Below, piece by piece: positions 5,995 through 21,934 of a stretch of 30,133 nt of DNA (the stretch's first letter is position 1; every line of letters starts with the position of its first letter). Under the pieces are notes generated by a model. That model did no database searches. It worked only from the letters and a program-made list of their open reading frames with translations, and was not told the origin of the DNA. Made by a program: the position numbers and the translations under genes. Source of the DNA: Vicinamibacteria bacterium (GTDB taxonomy: Bacteria; Acidobacteriota; Vicinamibacteria; Vicinamibacterales; 2-12-FULL-66-21); assembly GCA_025937075.1 (NCBI GenBank), contig JAICSD010000003.1:1-30133 (forward strand), in the 5' to 3' direction.

Positions 5995-6255
5995 ATGAAG
6001 CCAATGAGCGCGCGCGAGCTCAAAAACTCTACCGGCGAAGTAGTGCGGACGCTCCGCCGCGGTGAGAGCATCCTGCTCACGTTCCGAGGGAAGGCCGTGG
6101 GGAGAATCGAACCAATCAGGCCCGAAGAGGCGCAGGTGCCGCGCGTTCCCTCGTACGATGAGGCGTGGGCGTCCATCGAATCGGAGCTCGAGGCCTCGAA
6201 GCCGAGATTCGGATCCTGGACAGAGGCGGAGGACGAAAGCCGCGGACGCCCGTGA
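5995..6255 (+). CDS. Type II antitoxin, Phd/YefM (prevent-host-death) family
   Basis: An 86-residue protein. The N-terminal half has the Phd/YefM DNA-binding fold: 'SARELKNSTGEVVRTLRRGE' followed by 'ILLTFRGKAVGRIEPI', the strand pair usual in the family. The C-terminal part (about 45-86) is acidic and charged and would wrap the toxin. It precedes and overlaps a PIN-domain gene by four bases (GTGA at 6252-6255), the usual antitoxin-toxin order. It probably represses its own promoter through the repeats around 5950-5980. ATG 5995 has a good RBS; ATG 6004 is an alternative. Confidence 0.9.
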   Translation: MKPMSARELKNSTGEVVRTLRRGESILLTFRGKAVGRIEPIRPEEAQVPRVPSYDEAWASIESELEASKPRFGSWTEAEDESRGRP

Positions 6256-6722
6256 TCTTCGTCGATTCCAACCTGTTCGTCATCGATCTGCGCTATCGCG
6301 AGGACGCCAATTATCGGCTGAATCGGCGAGCGCTCGACCGGTTGGCGCGGGATGGCACCGGCGTGACGAGCGTTCTCAACGTCCTCGAACTTTGCGGCAT
6401 CCTCAGCTTCAATCTTTCCACCACCGCTCTACATGGTCTGTACGTGCACTTCGCGCAGCGGTATCGGATGACAGTACTCCCGACCGGCGGTCACGAGGCG
6501 CGGCTGCCGGCACCGACAGTCCGTGATGTGCTGATGCAGATGGAAAAGCGAATGGCCTTGAAGGATGCCGAAATTGCGCTCGTCGTCCAGCAGCAGGCCA
6601 CGAGCCTGGACGCATTTGTGAGCTGGAACGCAAAGCACTTCGACGGAAAGCTCCCAATCCGGGCGCTGACGCCGCGCGAATGGCTCGGGACTCTCCGGCG
6701 CCGGAAGCGCCCGCGTTCCTGA
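6252..6722 (+). CDS. PIN-domain toxin (VapC-like ribonuclease)
   Basis: A 156-residue PIN domain. Residues start 'IFVDSNLFVIDLRY' with metal-binding Asp5. Glu46 lies in 'LNVLELCG', Asp105 in 'LKDAEIALV', and the C-terminal 'FVSWNAKHFDGK' (about 122-133) matches the last PIN strand, with Asn in place of the usual Asp. Such toxins cleave tRNA or rRNA with Mg2+. The start GTG 6252 is chosen because it overlaps the antitoxin stop; the same frame extends upstream to 6165 only within the antitoxin gene. The length is slightly above the common 130-140. Target RNA unknown. tRNA-Arg lies 120 bases downstream on the other strand. Confidence 0.88.
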   Translation: MIFVDSNLFVIDLRYREDANYRLNRRALDRLARDGTGVTSVLNVLELCGILSFNLSTTALHGLYVHFAQRYRMTVLPTGGHEARLPAPTVRDVLMQMEKRMALKDAEIALVVQQQATSLDAFVSWNAKHFDGKLPIRALTPREWLGTLRRRKRPRS

Positions 6723-13915: not shown

Positions 13916-15136
13916 ATGACAACGATGCGGCCCATCCGTCACACGATCCCGCTTCAGGAAGCACTTGCGCTCGTGCTACAGGCCGCGCGGCCGATCGAAC
14001 GCACCGAACGGGTGCCGCTGCCCGAGGCATCGGGTCGCGTCAGTGCGGGTGCGGTCGTTGCCGCGATCGATGTCCCTCCGTTCGATCGCGCCGCGATGGA
14101 CGGCTACGCCGTGCGCGCCGAGGACACCTTCGGCGCAAGCCGCGACGATCCCCGCGTGCTCCGCTCGATTGCGAAAGTCTTCACCGGCGAATCATCGTCC
14201 TTGGCCGTCGGGGCCGGTGAGTGCATCGAGATCGCAACGGGTGCGCCGCTTCCCGCGGGAGCCGACGCCGTGGTGATGGTCGAAGAGACCGATCGCGCGG
14301 ACGGCAGTGACGAGGTGCGCATCTTCACGCCCGTGTATCCGCGGCAGCACGTCGGCCTTCGCGGTGCCGACATGGCTGCGGGCCACACGGTACTGCAGCC
14401 GGGCGAGGTGCTGAACCCGAGCCGGATCGGCGCGCTCGCCGCAATCGGGACGCGACACGTCGACGTCTACGCGCGGCCGTCCGTCGCGATCGTCTCCACC
14501 GGGAACGAAGTCGCGGAGCCGGGGACGCCGCTCCGTCCGGGGCAGATCTACGACATCAATCGGTACACCCTGTCGTCAATCGTCGGCGCGCACGGCGGCG
14601 ACGCGGCGCCCGCATCGACGGTGTCCGATGATCTCGCCAGCCTCGACGCCGCGCTCGACAGCGCCCTCGCACGCGACATTCTGGTGTTCTCCGGCGGCAG
14701 CTCGGTTGGCGAACGGGACCTCATCCTCGACGTGCTCATGACCCGCGGCGAGGTGTTGTTTCACGGCGTGGCGGTCAAGCCTGGCAAGCCCACCACGTTC
14801 GCGATCGTGCAGGGAAAGCCGGTGCTCGGCATGCCGGGTTATCCGACGTCGTGTCTCTCCAACGCCTACATCCTGCTCGTCCCGATGCTGCGGAAGATTG
14901 CACGGCTCACCGAGTTCCAGCCACATACGCGTCGTCTGCCGCTCGCCAAGCGCATCGTCTCCACGACAGGACGTCATCAGTTCTACACCGTGCGGATCGC
15001 GGACGACACCGCTGTGCCCGCATTCAAAGCGTCCGGCGACATCACGAGCATGTCGCTGGCCGACGGCTACATCGAAATTCCCGCGGCCGTCGACATCGTC
15101 GAAGCGGGCGAGATGGTCGTCGTCAATCTGTTCTGA
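13916..15136 (+). CDS. moeA: Molybdopterin molybdenumtransferase MoeA
   Basis: A 406-residue enzyme that inserts molybdate into adenylylated molybdopterin. The family landmarks are 'PPFDRAAMDGYAVRA' near 55-70, 'IATGAPLPAGADAVV' near 105, the central 'STGNEVAEPGTPLRPGQIYD' near 195, 'FSGGSSVGERD' near 260, 'VKPGKPTTFA' and 'GMPGYPTSCLSN' near 305-320, and the C-terminal domain IV. ATG 13916 follows a GGAG motif. Upstream frame extension is only the shadow of the asparaginase. The stop overlaps the ATG of the next gene (TGATG at 15134-15138), so the two are translationally coupled. Confidence 0.95.
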   Translation: MTTMRPIRHTIPLQEALALVLQAARPIERTERVPLPEASGRVSAGAVVAAIDVPPFDRAAMDGYAVRAEDTFGASRDDPRVLRSIAKVFTGESSSLAVGAGECIEIATGAPLPAGADAVVMVEETDRADGSDEVRIFTPVYPRQHVGLRGADMAAGHTVLQPGEVLNPSRIGALAAIGTRHVDVYARPSVAIVSTGNEVAEPGTPLRPGQIYDINRYTLSSIVGAHGGDAAPASTVSDDLASLDAALDSALARDILVFSGGSSVGERDLILDVLMTRGEVLFHGVAVKPGKPTTFAIVQGKPVLGMPGYPTSCLSNAYILLVPMLRKIARLTEFQPHTRRLPLAKRIVSTTGRHQFYTVRIADDTAVPAFKASGDITSMSLADGYIEIPAAVDIVEAGEMVVVNLF

Positions 15137-15606
15137 TGCACGCGTCGCCGCTTTCCCACGCGCCGGACTTCGCGCTGCCGGATCAAAAGGGGCGGACGCG
15201 GACGCTGCAGGAGCTCCTGGCGCCCGGTCCGCTGCTGCTCGCGTTCCATCGCGGCACCTGGTGACCGAACTGCCGCCACCAGTTTGGTGAGCTGTCGGCG
15301 CACGCGGCGGATTACAGAAACGAAGGCGCGCACGTGGTGGGCGTCGTCGCGCAGCGGCCGGAGGCCGTTCGACGATTCATCGAGGAGACCGGGCTCGCAT
15401 TCGACGTGTTGATCGACGAACGCCGCGACGTGCTGCGCGCGTACGGCGTCTGGCACCGCATCGGCCTCGACGCCTGGAACATCGCTCGTCCGGCCCTGTT
15501 CCTGATCGACCCCGATCGAACCATCCGTTATGCGAGGATTGGGGATGCCCAGAGTGAATTTCCGGCGCACGACGAGATCCTGCGGGCGGTCCGGATGAAA
15601 GGCTGA
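15136..15606 (+). CDS. Peroxiredoxin-like (AhpC/TSA) selenoprotein with in-frame TGA at the active-site Cys
   Basis: Reading one frame from ATG 15136 to TGA 15604-15606 gives 156 residues, interrupted only by TGA at 15262-15264 (codon 43). Before it: 'HAPDFALPDQKGRTRTLQEL' and 'LLLAFHRGTW'. After it: 'PNCRHQFGELSAHAADY', then 'GVVAQRPEAVRRFIEETGLA', 'DERRDVLRAYGVWH' and 'PALFLIDPDRTIRYARIGD'. This is a complete AhpC/TSA-redoxin fold, and the TGA falls exactly where this family has the first Cys of its W-C-P-x-C active site. The predicted active site is therefore Sec43-P-N-Cys46. A SECIS-like hairpin follows. There is no frameshift, and both halves keep coding character. It overlaps the moeA stop (TGATG). 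Likely role: thiol-dependent reduction of peroxides or disulfides. Sec machinery is not in the window; a nonsense mutation of a Cys codon is the alternative. Confidence 0.85.
15272..15295 (+). promoter_or_regulatory. Candidate bacterial SECIS hairpin
   Basis: The RNA just downstream of the TGA folds with stem pairs C15277-C15280/G15286-G15289 (CACC with GGUG), extended by A15281-U15285, leaving apical loop GUU. Below, C15276-G15291, G15275-C15292, C15273-G15294 and G15272-U15295 continue the stem with one bulged A and one mismatch. The apical-loop G15282 lies 17 nucleotides after the UGA, within the spacing known for bacterial SECIS elements that recruit SelB. The fold was worked out by eye. 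Confidence 0.65.
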
Positions 15607-16406: not shown

Positions 16407-16435
16407 GTTGCGCGACTATATCGTTGCGCGACTAT
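16407..16435. repeat. 13-bp direct repeat overlapping the sodA stop
   Basis: GTTGCGCGACTAT occurs at 16407-16419 and again at 16423-16435, a 16-base period. The second copy includes the sodA stop codon and last codons, so the first copy looks like a tandem duplication of the gene's tail. Confidence 0.75.
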
Positions 16436-17031
16436 TTGAAGCGCTTGTTCACCGCATCCCAGTTGACGACGTTCCACCATGCATTGACGTAGTCCGGCCG
16501 GCGGTTCTGATATTTCAGATAGTACGCGTGCTCCCAGACATCGATTCCGAGCACCGGCTTCTTGCCTTCCATAAGAGGACTGTCCTGGTTCGCGGTGCTC
16601 TCGATCGTCAGCTTGCCGCCGGCATCGATGAGCCACGCCCAGCCGCTGCCGAAGCGCTTCGCCGCCGCGTCCGCGAACTGCGTCTTGAACGTGTCGAAGC
16701 TGCCGAACGATGACTTGATCGCATCGGCGATCGCGCCACTCGGCGCGCCACCCTTGCCCGGACCCATGATCTCCCAGAACATCGTGTGGTTCACGTGGCC
16801 GCCGCCGTTGTTGCGGACGGCCGTCCTGATGTCCTCAGGGACGGTGTTGATGCCGCGAATCAGATCCTCGACGCTCTTGTTCTGAAGCTCCGGATGCTTC
16901 TCGAGGGCGGCGTTGAGGTTGTTCACGTACGCTCCGTGATGCGTGTCGTGGTGGATCCGCATCGTCTGTTCGTCGATGTGCGGCTCGAGAGCGTTGTAGT
17001 CGTACGGGAGGGGTGGAACTGAATGCGCCAT
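16432..17031 (-). CDS. sodA: Superoxide dismutase, Mn/Fe type
   Basis: A 199-residue cytoplasmic enzyme converting superoxide to H2O2 and O2. Predicted metal ligands are His27 ('[15 protein letters not shown]'), His82 ('[11 protein letters not shown]'), Asp164 and His168 ('[18 protein letters not shown]'). Gln149 in '[10 protein letters not shown]' is the C-terminal outer-sphere Gln typical of Mn-type enzymes, so Mn is favoured, though cambialistic use is possible. There is no signal peptide. AAGGAG (complement of 17038-17043) gives a strong RBS 6 bases before ATG 17031. It lies 29 bases after nadA on the same strand and is probably co-transcribed with it. Confidence 0.96.
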
Positions 17032-19410: not shown

Positions 19411-19444
19411 GTCTTTCGATGTTACTACGAGTGATATGATTGCA

Positions 19445-19632
19445 GATTGCCGGGCGGTCAAGCGAAGTGGGTGCGAAGCCCACGCGGTGCCGCCACTGTA
19501 AGCGGGGAGCATCATCTCCATGCCGGCTCGATGCCGGCGCCACTGTCCCGCCGACGCTCGCGCAGCGAGCGAAGGCGGATGGGAAGGTGGGGTTGATCGC
19601 GACGATCCGCGAGCCAGGATACCTGGCTGCCC
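19445..19632 (+). promoter_or_regulatory. Cobalamin (B12) riboswitch
   Basis: The btuB leader carries the cobalamin-riboswitch core in order: GTGGGTGCGAAGCCCAC with GGTGCCGCCACTG (about 19467-19497), AAGCGGGGAGC, then GCCACTGTCCCG (about 19539-19550), GGGAAGG (about 19580), and the B12 box with GAGCCAGGATACCTGGC (about 19610-19626). It would hide the ribosome-binding site or terminate transcription when adenosylcobalamin is bound. TATGAT at 19435-19440 is a possible -10. The RBS AAGGAGG at 19671-19677 directly follows a small stem (TCGGCG/CGCCGA at 19651-19670). Confidence 0.93.
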
Positions 19633-19681
19633 GGGCCCATTACTTCTGCCTCGGCGCGAGAGCACGCCGAAAGGAGGCCCG

Positions 19682-21934
19682 GTGCCGCGTTTTTCTGTCA
19701 CGCGTTTTCTCCCTCTCATCCTTCTCATCGCCGCGGCGCGCGCCGACGCGGCAGCCGTGATCGGACGCGTGGTCGATCCCGCTGAGCGTCCGGTACCCGG
19801 CGCGTCCGTTCTGATCGTGTGCGCATCCACTGTTTCTGCCGTTGCGATCACGGATCGTGACGGCAGGTTCAGGACACCCGACGTCGAGGGACGCTGCGAG
19901 CTGCGCGTGGCCCTGCAGGGGTTCGCCGCCGCGCCACTCGCGCTGGATCTCGATCACGGCCACGAGGTCCACGACGCCGGCGTCGTCCGTCTGGAGGTGA
20001 GCGCCGTTTCCGAATCGCTCGTCGTCTCGGCTGCGAATGTGGATGTGCCGCTGTCGCAGGCGTCCGCGGCGGTGACCGTGATCACCGGAGATGAGCTTCG
20101 CGCGCGACAGATCACGACGGTCGCCGATGCGCTCCGGATCGTGCCGGGTCTCACCGTCGTCCGCGCCGGCAGCGCAGGGGCGGTGACGAGCGTGTTTCCA
20201 CGCGGTGGCGAGTCGGACTATTCGCTCGTGCTGATCGATGGCATCCAGGCGAACGCGTTCGGCGGAGGCTTCGATTTCTCTCACCTGCCCGTCGAGAACA
20301 TCGATCGCATCGAGGTGGTACGCGGGCCGCAAAGCGCGCTGTTCGGATCGAACGCGATCGGGTCGGTCGTCCGCATCATCACGCGTGACGCCGGGCCCAT
20401 CCGCGGCAACGCCGCTCTCGACGCCGGAAGCTTCGGAACGCGGCGTGCGTCCGCGGAGTCATCGGGTACGGCGGGCCGATGGTTCTGGGGCGCTGGCACC
20501 GAATGGCTCACCAGCGATGGCTGGAACGGTCAGCCGTCGCCGTCGGGCGAGATCGTCGACAACGACGATTACACGCGAACCGAAGCCGGAGCCGCGGGCG
20601 GCTGGCGCGACGACCGCGGCGCCACGCTGCACGGAGAGGTGCGGTTCGAGCGCGACGACCGCGGGTTTCCCGGCCCGTTCGGATCGAATCCCGTTGGGGC
20701 GTATGAAGGGATCGATCTCGTGTCGCGCGGCGTCGACGATCGCTGGCTCGCGTCCGTTTCAGGCGCGATCCCGTCCGGACGCCGCGTGCGGACGCAAGCA
20801 CAGGCGACGTGGAACACGATTGGCGGTGATTTCACGAGCCCGTTCGGACCATCGGAATCGGGCTCCAGGCGAGCGGCGATCCGCGCGCAGACGGACGTCC
20901 GCGTGCGCGAAGGCCTCGACGTCTCGGCTGGAATCGAAATTCAGCGCGAGCGCGCGACCAGCACGTTCATCACGGACGACTCCCTCTCGCCCATTCCCGT
21001 CGATCGGAGCGCCGCCGGGTATTTCGGCGAGCTGCGCTGGAGCGCGCGCGCTCGGCTGTTCGTCACGAGCGGCGTGCGGGTGGACGACATCAGGCGCGAC
21101 GCGCTTGCCGGCTTCAGCGATCCATTCAGCCCCCGTCCCGACTTCCCCAGCGATCGCGTCGTCTCGACGAACCCGCGTCTGGCCGCGGCATGGCTGGCGC
21201 GCCCTGGAACCGCATCGTCGACGAAGCTGCGCGCGGCGGCCGGCACCGGCATACGCCCGCCGGACGGATTCGAGATCGCGTTCACCGACAATCCGTCGCT
21301 GAAGCCCGAGCGCAGCCGCAGCATCGAAGCGGGCGTCGATCAGACGATGTTCTCCTCGCACGCGCTCGTGCAGGCGACCATCTTCGACAATCATTTCGAC
21401 GATCTGATCATCGCGGTCGGTCCATTCCGCGAGTCGAGCCGCTACCGGACGGACAACATTTCCAATGCGCTCGCGCGAGGTCTCGAGCTGGCGTCCGTGC
21501 TCCGCGGCCGCGCCGCCGGATTCGATGTCCAATCGCAGATCGCCTACACGTTCATGCATACGGAGATCCTCGCGGTCGACGGCTCGCGGCTAGCGCCGGC
21601 ACCGTTCACGCCGGGCGATCCGCTGCTGCGCCGTCCGCGGCACCAGTGGTCGGCGGACGTCTCCGCGGTACGCGGACGCTTGACCGCGTGGGTACGCGGC
21701 GGCGGCCGCGGACGCGTGCTCGACGTGGAGCCGACGCTGGGGACGTTCGGCGGCCTGTTTACTGCGCCCGGGTACGCCGTCTGGAACGCCGGCGGTGCAT
21801 GGAAGCTGGCGAAAGGCGTCGAGCTGTTTGCTCGCGTGGAGAACCTGTTCGATCGCGGCTACGAGGAGGCGTTCGGGTTCCCGGCACTCGGCCGCGGCGC
21901 GTTCGCTGGCATCCGGGTCGCCGGCAGCCGCTAG
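19682..21934 (+). CDS. btuB: TonB-dependent cobalamin receptor BtuB-like
   Basis: A 750-residue outer-membrane receptor. Residues 1-24 form a signal peptide. A carboxypeptidase-regulatory-like domain (about 25-110, 'VVDPAERPVPGASV', 'DRDGRFRTPDV') precedes the plug, with 'LSQASAAVTVITGDELRARQ', 'ADALRIVPGLTV', 'DGIQANAFGGG' and 'VEVVRGPQSALFGSNAIG'-type motifs. The remainder is the TonB barrel, with 'NPSLKPERSRSIEAGVDQ' and C-terminal 'VENLFDRGYEEAFGFPALGR'. Start GTG 19682 has a strong AAGGAGG RBS; the longer frame upstream lies inside the riboswitch. The riboswitch and the btuD-btuC-btuF genes support cobalamin as ligand. The extra N-terminal domain is unlike E. coli BtuB. Confidence 0.92.
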   Translation: MPRFSVTRFLPLILLIAAARADAAAVIGRVVDPAERPVPGASVLIVCASTVSAVAITDRDGRFRTPDVEGRCELRVALQGFAAAPLALDLDHGHEVHDAGVVRLEVSAVSESLVVSAANVDVPLSQASAAVTVITGDELRARQITTVADALRIVPGLTVVRAGSAGAVTSVFPRGGESDYSLVLIDGIQANAFGGGFDFSHLPVENIDRIEVVRGPQSALFGSNAIGSVVRIITRDAGPIRGNAALDAGSFGTRRASAESSGTAGRWFWGAGTEWLTSDGWNGQPSPSGEIVDNDDYTRTEAGAAGGWRDDRGATLHGEVRFERDDRGFPGPFGSNPVGAYEGIDLVSRGVDDRWLASVSGAIPSGRRVRTQAQATWNTIGGDFTSPFGPSESGSRRAAIRAQTDVRVREGLDVSAGIEIQRERATSTFITDDSLSPIPVDRSAAGYFGELRWSARARLFVTSGVRVDDIRRDALAGFSDPFSPRPDFPSDRVVSTNPRLAAAWLARPGTASSTKLRAAAGTGIRPPDGFEIAFTDNPSLKPERSRSIEAGVDQTMFSSHALVQATIFDNHFDDLIIAVGPFRESSRYRTDNISNALARGLELASVLRGRAAGFDVQSQIAYTFMHTEILAVDGSRLAPAPFTPGDPLLRRPRHQWSADVSAVRGRLTAWVRGGGRGRVLDVEPTLGTFGGLFTAPGYAVWNAGGAWKLAKGVELFARVENLFDRGYEEAFGFPALGRGAFAGIRVAGSR

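Follow-up and report, generated by a model that had tools for sequence, protein, structure and literature searches.

A peroxiredoxin-like gene behind moeA in Acidobacteriota with an in-frame TGA very probably read as selenocysteine

Introduction

What does a TGA codon signify when it stands at the active site of an otherwise intact redox gene? The question arises at a locus within a 30,133-nucleotide stretch of DNA from a Vicinamibacteria bacterium, the whole of which was analyzed here and is called the window. Working from the letters alone, the initial annotation read this locus as an overlooked peroxiredoxin-like selenoprotein whose TGA encodes selenocysteine (Sec). That interpretation is supported by the relatives of the gene, in what they carry at codon 43, in their Sec machinery and in the spacing of a SECIS-like hairpin. 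We conclude, with little doubt, that the product of the gene is a selenoprotein of the peroxiredoxin-like (AhpC/TSA) type whose active site is UxxC and in which UGA is read as Sec by means of a hairpin. Most probably, this is a real gene of an already known kind, fitting the Prx-like UxxC selenoproteins, with a TGA whose presence is unusually consistent in the genomes searched.

A peroxiredoxin-like frame with one internal stop

The frame lies on the forward strand at 15136–15606, running from an ATG at 15136 to a terminal TGA at 15604–15606, and its identity as a UxxC peroxiredoxin-like selenoprotein gene draws on an AhpC-TSA match and on orthologues. It spells 156 residues and is open, as first described, except for a forward-strand TGA at 15262–15264, which falls at codon 43 and is the only internal stop (translated context ...FHRGTW[U]PNCRHQF...). 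This TGA is the putative Sec codon; orthologues have TGA at this position and protein homologues have Cys. With Cys written for U, the read-through product matches Pfam AhpC-TSA (PF00578; E 1.7e-30, 105.9 bits against a cut-off of 26) over residues 8–132, and Redoxin (PF08534; E 5.5e-21, 75.3 bits against a cut-off of 26.6). Because the AhpC-TSA match spans residues 8–132, both flanks of the TGA are family sequence in one frame, which bears out the earlier claim of a full AhpC/TSA protein.

Under the standard code, an ORF list searched at 80 aa or more holds two ORFs in the frame of the selenoprotein gene: one of 90 aa with a GTG start at 15334–15606, precisely the fragment that gene calling had been predicted to produce, and another that starts at 14851 and ends with the TGA at 15264. 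Truncation or loss of the Sec enzyme is thus to be expected from standard gene calling. A scan of the window for further frames broken by a TGA yielded too many GC-rich open frames to be informative.

Directly upstream on the forward strand is moeA (13925–15136, with the start read by eye), for which a scan from 13931 gives the Pfam domains MoeA_N, MoCF_biosynth and MoeA_C. Its TGA stop overlaps the ATG of the selenoprotein gene (TGATG) in the window and in 7 of 19 loci from relatives, and moeA stands directly upstream of the orthologue in 19 of 20 genome loci. A convergent neighbor at 16432–17031 on the reverse strand encodes an Fe/Mn superoxide dismutase by family match; a gene of this type also lies downstream in 10 of the 20 relatives' loci, for which flanks of up to 1.5 kb were available. 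Identity to the relatives' copies reaches 73% for the moeA of the window and 88% for its sodA. This conserved moeA/sodA neighborhood marks true orthologues, and the arrangement suggests co-expression of the selenoprotein gene with molybdenum cofactor synthesis.

Active site and function

The motif, GTW-U-PN-C, places UxxC where a classical Sec peroxiredoxin has TxxU. In an alignment with Aeropyrum PrxQ (2cx3), residue 43 is opposite the Ser of PxxxSxxC, and Cys46 (forward strand, codon at 15271–15273), the second residue of UxxC, is opposite the Cys of this PrxQ/BCP motif, which we take to be the peroxidatic Cys of PrxQ. This refines the initial proposal that Sec occupies the active-site Cys position: Sec43 is the first residue of UxxC, and the position of the peroxidatic Cys of PrxQ belongs to Cys46. 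Judged from sequence, Sec43-x-x-Cys46 resembles a thioredoxin-type motif set in a peroxiredoxin frame. Most likely, Sec43 would attack as a low-pKa selenolate, with a peroxide or a disulfide as its target, and Cys46 would resolve the Sec43 intermediate as a selenenylsulfide; thioredoxin or a similar reductant would then reset the enzyme.

An AF2 model built with Cys at position 43 from 28 rows (pLDDT 87.4, pTM 0.86) has Bcp4, PrxQ and BcpB as its top PDB fold matches, with ResA appearing from rank 8. PrxQ/BCP peroxidases are also the best sequence matches, and ResA is again among the matches. These comparisons bear on whether the selenoprotein acts as a thiol-disulfide oxidoreductase of the ResA/TlpA type and not as a peroxidase, a possibility that would narrow the main reading, is compatible with it and stands only a little short of an even chance. 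Several features would fit such an activity, including UxxC in place of TxxU, the alignment of residue 43 with Ser in 2cx3, the recurrence of ResA in both sequence and fold searches, and the description of Prx-like UXXC proteins as thioredoxin-like in an excerpt of PMC1088965. By contrast, the highest-ranking matches by sequence and by fold are peroxidases, and the neighboring superoxide dismutase is a producer of H2O2. Because of the fold and this neighbor, we lean slightly toward a peroxide rather than a disulfide as substrate, at nearly even odds.

Codon 43 in homologues and orthologues

The read-through product has 1033 protein matches. Among the best 120 of these 1033, Cys occupies residue 43 in 118, the other two having Trp, and residue 46 in all 120, so the assertion that relatives have Cys at the position of the TGA holds for nearly all of these proteins. 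This Cys majority is biased, because standard gene calling is not expected to give full-length TGA forms. The two Trp rows (P0021 and P0119) are encoded on contigs 1038 and 706 bases long, and their Trp is probably a TGA that a table-4 gene call wrote as Trp.

At the level of DNA, three genome-contig loci included one close relative, L001 (Acidobacteria MAG Bin1.33, 64% identity), with TGA at the same codon. Orthologue searches that read through stops were made first in 12 genomes of the family to which its genome belongs and then in 193 genomes of the class. An orthologue was found in 20 of the 193 class genomes (E up to 1e-20); codon 43 is an in-frame TGA in 20 of 20 and Cys in none of these copies. 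Nineteen orthologues are full-length copies that contain a single in-frame TGA each, in the motif GTW-TGA-PNC, and the half downstream of the TGA is intact in all 19. The remaining one, in G009, is split over two contigs, and the piece that covers the site has TGA followed by Arg and not Pro. Two points on which the initial annotation had staked its reading thus came out in its favor: relatives have either Cys or TGA at codon 43, bar the two Trp protein rows, and their downstream halves are undecayed.

More distant matches extend the pattern. Five of the 162 genomes of a second class match (E up to 1e-20, 37–41% identity), all five with TGA and with the motif RGYW-U-PSC or similar. A phylum sample of 396 genomes, queried with P0072 (E up to 1e-25), gave six matches, four of them already seen and every one with TGA. 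A search of viral contigs for DNA of the Cys form gave no relative. In the family of the L001 genome, the weaker matches are paralogues, of which some contain a TGA and others do not. Further TGA-containing peroxiredoxin homologues of the UxxC type, with DW-TGA-PYC, occur in the relatives' genomes (L032 around 1869–1504 and L034 around 1504–1857).

The UGA could instead serve mainly as a stop, with a functional 42-residue product or a regulatory termination coupled to moeA, and with read-through as a minor event. Sec recoding faces competition from termination by release factor 2, according to an excerpt of PMC4513850, and the overlap of start and moeA stop in the window and some of its relatives would suit such regulation. 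However, the sequence after the TGA is conserved, with invariant columns up to residue 148 in 28 aligned proteins, and has escaped decay in every one of the 19 full-length TGA copies. We therefore regard a predominant stop function as very improbable.

A decayed gene or a sequencing error, with the TGA as a nonsense mutation or a miscalled TGC, is more improbable still. TGA is one base away from TGC, and the Cys form is in the majority among the best 120 listed proteins, but chance is excluded as the source of the TGA because it recurs at the same codon in all 20 orthologue-bearing genomes; the intact downstream halves and the moeA synteny kept in 19 of 20 loci likewise speak against decay. 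By these sequence comparisons, decay or error can be considered refuted at the level of the family. A frameshift was set aside together with the nonsense mutation, given family sequence in one frame on both flanks.

Selenocysteine machinery in relatives

Machinery for Sec insertion was counted in the genomes of the 20 TGA-bearing relatives of the class, the window itself covering 30,133 nt, in which the single tRNA is an Arg tRNA and no tRNA-Sec was found. SelB is over its cut-off in 19 of 20 genomes (all except G072), SelA in 18 (G072 has a partial match and G007 none) and SelD in 17 (not G073, G078 or G082). Each of the 17 selD genes contains one in-frame TGA, as expected because SelD is itself a selenoprotein, listed as such in an excerpt of PMC13188914. 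A tRNA-Sec scoring above 56 bits is present in 16 genomes (not G007, G078, G088 or G089), and ARAGORN reads all 16 as tRNA-SeC (tca), with anticodon UCA. Thirteen of the 20 genomes have all four parts over cut-off; the other seven miss one or two, every genome has at least two, and the missing parts may be assembly losses, given the many contigs of these assemblies.

In the class as a whole, 140 of 193 genomes have a SelB over cut-off and 150 of 193 have a tRNA-Sec match; among the latter, some that score about 50 bits may be tRNA-Ser, as was the case for L006. SelB accompanies the orthologue in 19 of 20 genomes, against 121 of the other 173 (Fisher p 0.016), and the corresponding counts for tRNA-Sec in the class-wide search are 17 of 20 against 133 of 173 (Fisher p 0.57). 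Because SelB and tRNA-Sec are common in the class, co-occurrence discriminates weakly. With SelB over cut-off in 140 genomes, Sec decoding looks common in this Acidobacteriota class, and more of its selenoproteins may have gone unnoticed.

A genome-wide reassignment of TGA to Trp, Cys or Gly, for which Trp at column 43 in P0021 and P0119 (2 of the best 120 homologues) would speak, as a table-4 call would write it, is next to impossible, since TGA ends 17 of 29 window ORFs picked by hand, including moeA and the selenoprotein gene, relatives have a tRNA-Sec with a UCA anticodon along with SelA, SelB and SelD, and the Trp rows, which lie on short contigs, are best explained as gene-caller artefacts.

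Several genomes have, in addition to a longer SelB, a second, short SelB-like frame of about 400 aa (model positions 1 to about 264–344, below cut-off). Examples are G018:C73:105659-106795, G016:C24:14-1186, G170:C1:5141502-5142665 and G178:C66:1269-2135, and the short frames of G016 and G170 have a stop inside (TAA, TAG).

SECIS-like hairpins downstream of the UGA

The bacterial SECIS model, as given in an excerpt of PMC13188914, combines an apical loop of 3–9 nt, a stem of 4–16 bp, a G in the first two loop positions, a spacing of 16–37 nt and a minimum free energy (MFE) of at most -7.5 kcal/mol. Three hairpins on the forward strand can be compared with it. Hairpin I (15277–15289) has a 5-bp stem and the 3-nt loop GUU at 15282–15284, 17 nt from the UGA. 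Its core alone has -4.9 to -5.3 kcal/mol, and the threshold is reached only through a bulged extension: the stretch 15274–15297 folds at -8.1 kcal/mol, with the same GUU loop and 17-nt spacing and with 7 bp interrupted by one bulge. This stretch agrees with the excerpted model in every respect, and competing folds exist. The alternative hairpin II (15280–15294) has the loop GGU at 15286–15288, 21 nt after the UGA, and is strong in many relatives and weak in the window (-3.7 kcal/mol). Hairpin III, in which 15264–15272 pairs with 15280–15288, contains the A of the UGA, is the most stable of the three taken alone (-10.9 kcal/mol) and is the fold of the 60-nt stretch; shorter stretches fold with the stem of hairpin I and not with hairpin III. 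Compared with dinucleotide shuffles, the stretch made up of UGA and the next 57 nt has no unusual stability (z -0.71).

Synonymous variation points to the same region. The comparison used 20 TGA genes, those of the window and 19 relatives, with L001 dropped as the same gene as L023 and the split G009 copy omitted. Relative to expectation, and in sequence pairs that are not independent, variation is 1.00 at codons -34 to -13, 0.94 at -12 to -1 and 0.96 at +1 to +4, falls to 0.39 at +5 to +8, is still somewhat low, near 0.8, from +12 to +60 and is back at 0.98 from +61 to +100. Codons +5 and +6 have zero synonymous differences in 222 pairs (126 expected). The block from +5 to +8 is the meaningful unit, because single low codons also occur outside the hairpin (for example, -3, +21 and +29), and this block is the stem of the overlapping hairpins I and II. 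Relatives differ in which hairpin they keep: those with Asp at +9 (L050, L054, L055 and L058) retain only hairpin I of the two, hairpin II is retained by five that have CAG at +6, and several can form both.

Covariation gives a less decisive picture. In alignment A2, hairpin I has 74.3% of cells paired and two two-sided changes, a count reached by 6 of 500 shuffles; one of these changes, A-U for G-C, is that of the window itself. Hairpin I surpasses all 500 shuffles in paired cells and in covariation score, but a control slid by -3 gives 0.143 against 0.137, and related sequences can exceed column shuffles without any structure, so that we regard the covariation as weak. Hairpins II and III, with 91.9% and 92.8% of cells paired, have no covariation beyond column shuffles. 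Codon randomization gives no set as high (0 of 300) for any of the three hairpins or for the MFE, and therefore supports structure with no choice among them. When only the window is considered, hairpin I is paired just as fully in 2 of 300 synonymous random sequences, and 5 of 300 reach an equally good fold.

Hairpin III was rejected as the SECIS. It includes the A of the UGA and lacks covariation beyond shuffles, its 5' half lies at codons +1 to +3, where synonymous variation is not clearly reduced (0.79, 1.38 and 1.09), and it would presumably be opened inside the ribosome. On these sequence data, the case for a SECIS as such is good, with either hairpin I or hairpin II as the candidate.

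Discussion

For the source cell, we infer recoding, translational coupling and the catalytic cycle set out above. Translation, probably coupled to that of moeA through the overlapping TGATG, would arrive at the UGA of codon 43. There, a hairpin with its apical loop beginning 17 nt further on would recruit SelB together with Sec-tRNA-Sec (anticodon UCA), and Sec would be inserted, whereas the TGA at the end of the gene would act as an ordinary stop.

How does this selenoprotein relate to known ones? Prx-like UxxC selenoproteins are described in excerpts of PMC1088965 and PMC2398784, and a Prx-like thiol:disulfide oxidoreductase (PF00578, UxxC) is predicted with high confidence in the excerpt of PMC13188914. 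Our gene resembles the latter in its PF00578 domain, UxxC motif, downstream SECIS-like hairpin and Cys homologues, a likeness judged by the published description of that family, whose type sequence is WP_010940744.1, and differs in that the orthologue group found here sits behind moeA in Acidobacteriota. Two further entries in the same excerpt are similar, again by description. The Redoxin family protein (PF08534, UxxC) shares a PF08534 match and a motif that starts with Sec, and might be the same family; the Peroxiredoxin-like family protein (cd02970, UxxS) also has a motif that starts with Sec but differs in the second residue. The classical Sec peroxiredoxin (TxxU) has the same fold and Pfam family, and genes of this type, with TGG-TGA-T (TGGU), occur in the same genomes (L042 around 1371–994 and L045 around 1881–1510). 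In contrast to that enzyme, Sec here is at the Thr/Ser position and Cys46 is at the Sec position, so that Sec is not at the peroxidatic position. No NCBIfam model reaches its cut-off for the read-through product; the best, the SelL-related redox protein NF040769, scores 61 bits, far under its cut-off of 120.

Excerpts of earlier surveys list four selenoproteins of three families in Acidobacteria (PMC1794560) and three selenoproteins in one Acidobacteriota genome (PMC12013277). An excerpt of PMC5029168 mentions Prx-like selenoproteins and not Acidobacteria, and the string 'acidobacteri' is absent from the excerpt of PMC13188914, where a groundwater MAG study is cited. In the excerpts available from open-access papers on Acidobacteriota selenoproteins or Prx-like UxxC selenoproteins, we found no account of this gene.

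A quick tree of 140 rows (the window, 19 TGA genes and the best 120 of the 1033 protein matches) interleaves TGA and Cys forms. If the two Trp rows are taken as TGA, it contains 10 Cys/TGA changes, with no readable direction; many rows have long branches, and 66 of the 137 inner branches are shown as open because their support is weak. Starred branches, for the Cys group and for the Sec group, force at least four changes. The window belongs to a starred set of 10 rows, 4 with TGA and 6 with Cys. Because Sec and Cys forms are interleaved, this family is a good one in which to ask what drives Sec/Cys exchange. Moreover, the contrast between Cys in 118 of the 120 listed proteins and TGA in 20 of 20 class genome copies suggests that databases hide the frequency of selenium use in this lineage. 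A bolder idea, which we consider rather unlikely, is that these genes form an unrecorded moeA-linked subfamily, present only in the Sec form in the searched Acidobacteriota genomes, whose database relatives have repeatedly switched between Sec and Cys; it is called unrecorded because searches of open-access papers only gave no description. Its SECIS could then be two-state, with mutually exclusive hairpins (loops GUU and GGU), of which some lineages keep one.

Elsewhere in the window, a cobalamin riboswitch (Rfam RF00174, 59.3 bits) at 19427–19644 on the forward strand overlaps the listed start of an ORF at 19520–21934, which by eye is TonB-dependent receptor-like and is followed by ORFs that resemble a BtuCD-type transporter. 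By eye, a pair of small ORFs at 5995–6722 on the forward strand resembles a Phd-type antitoxin with a PIN-type toxin.
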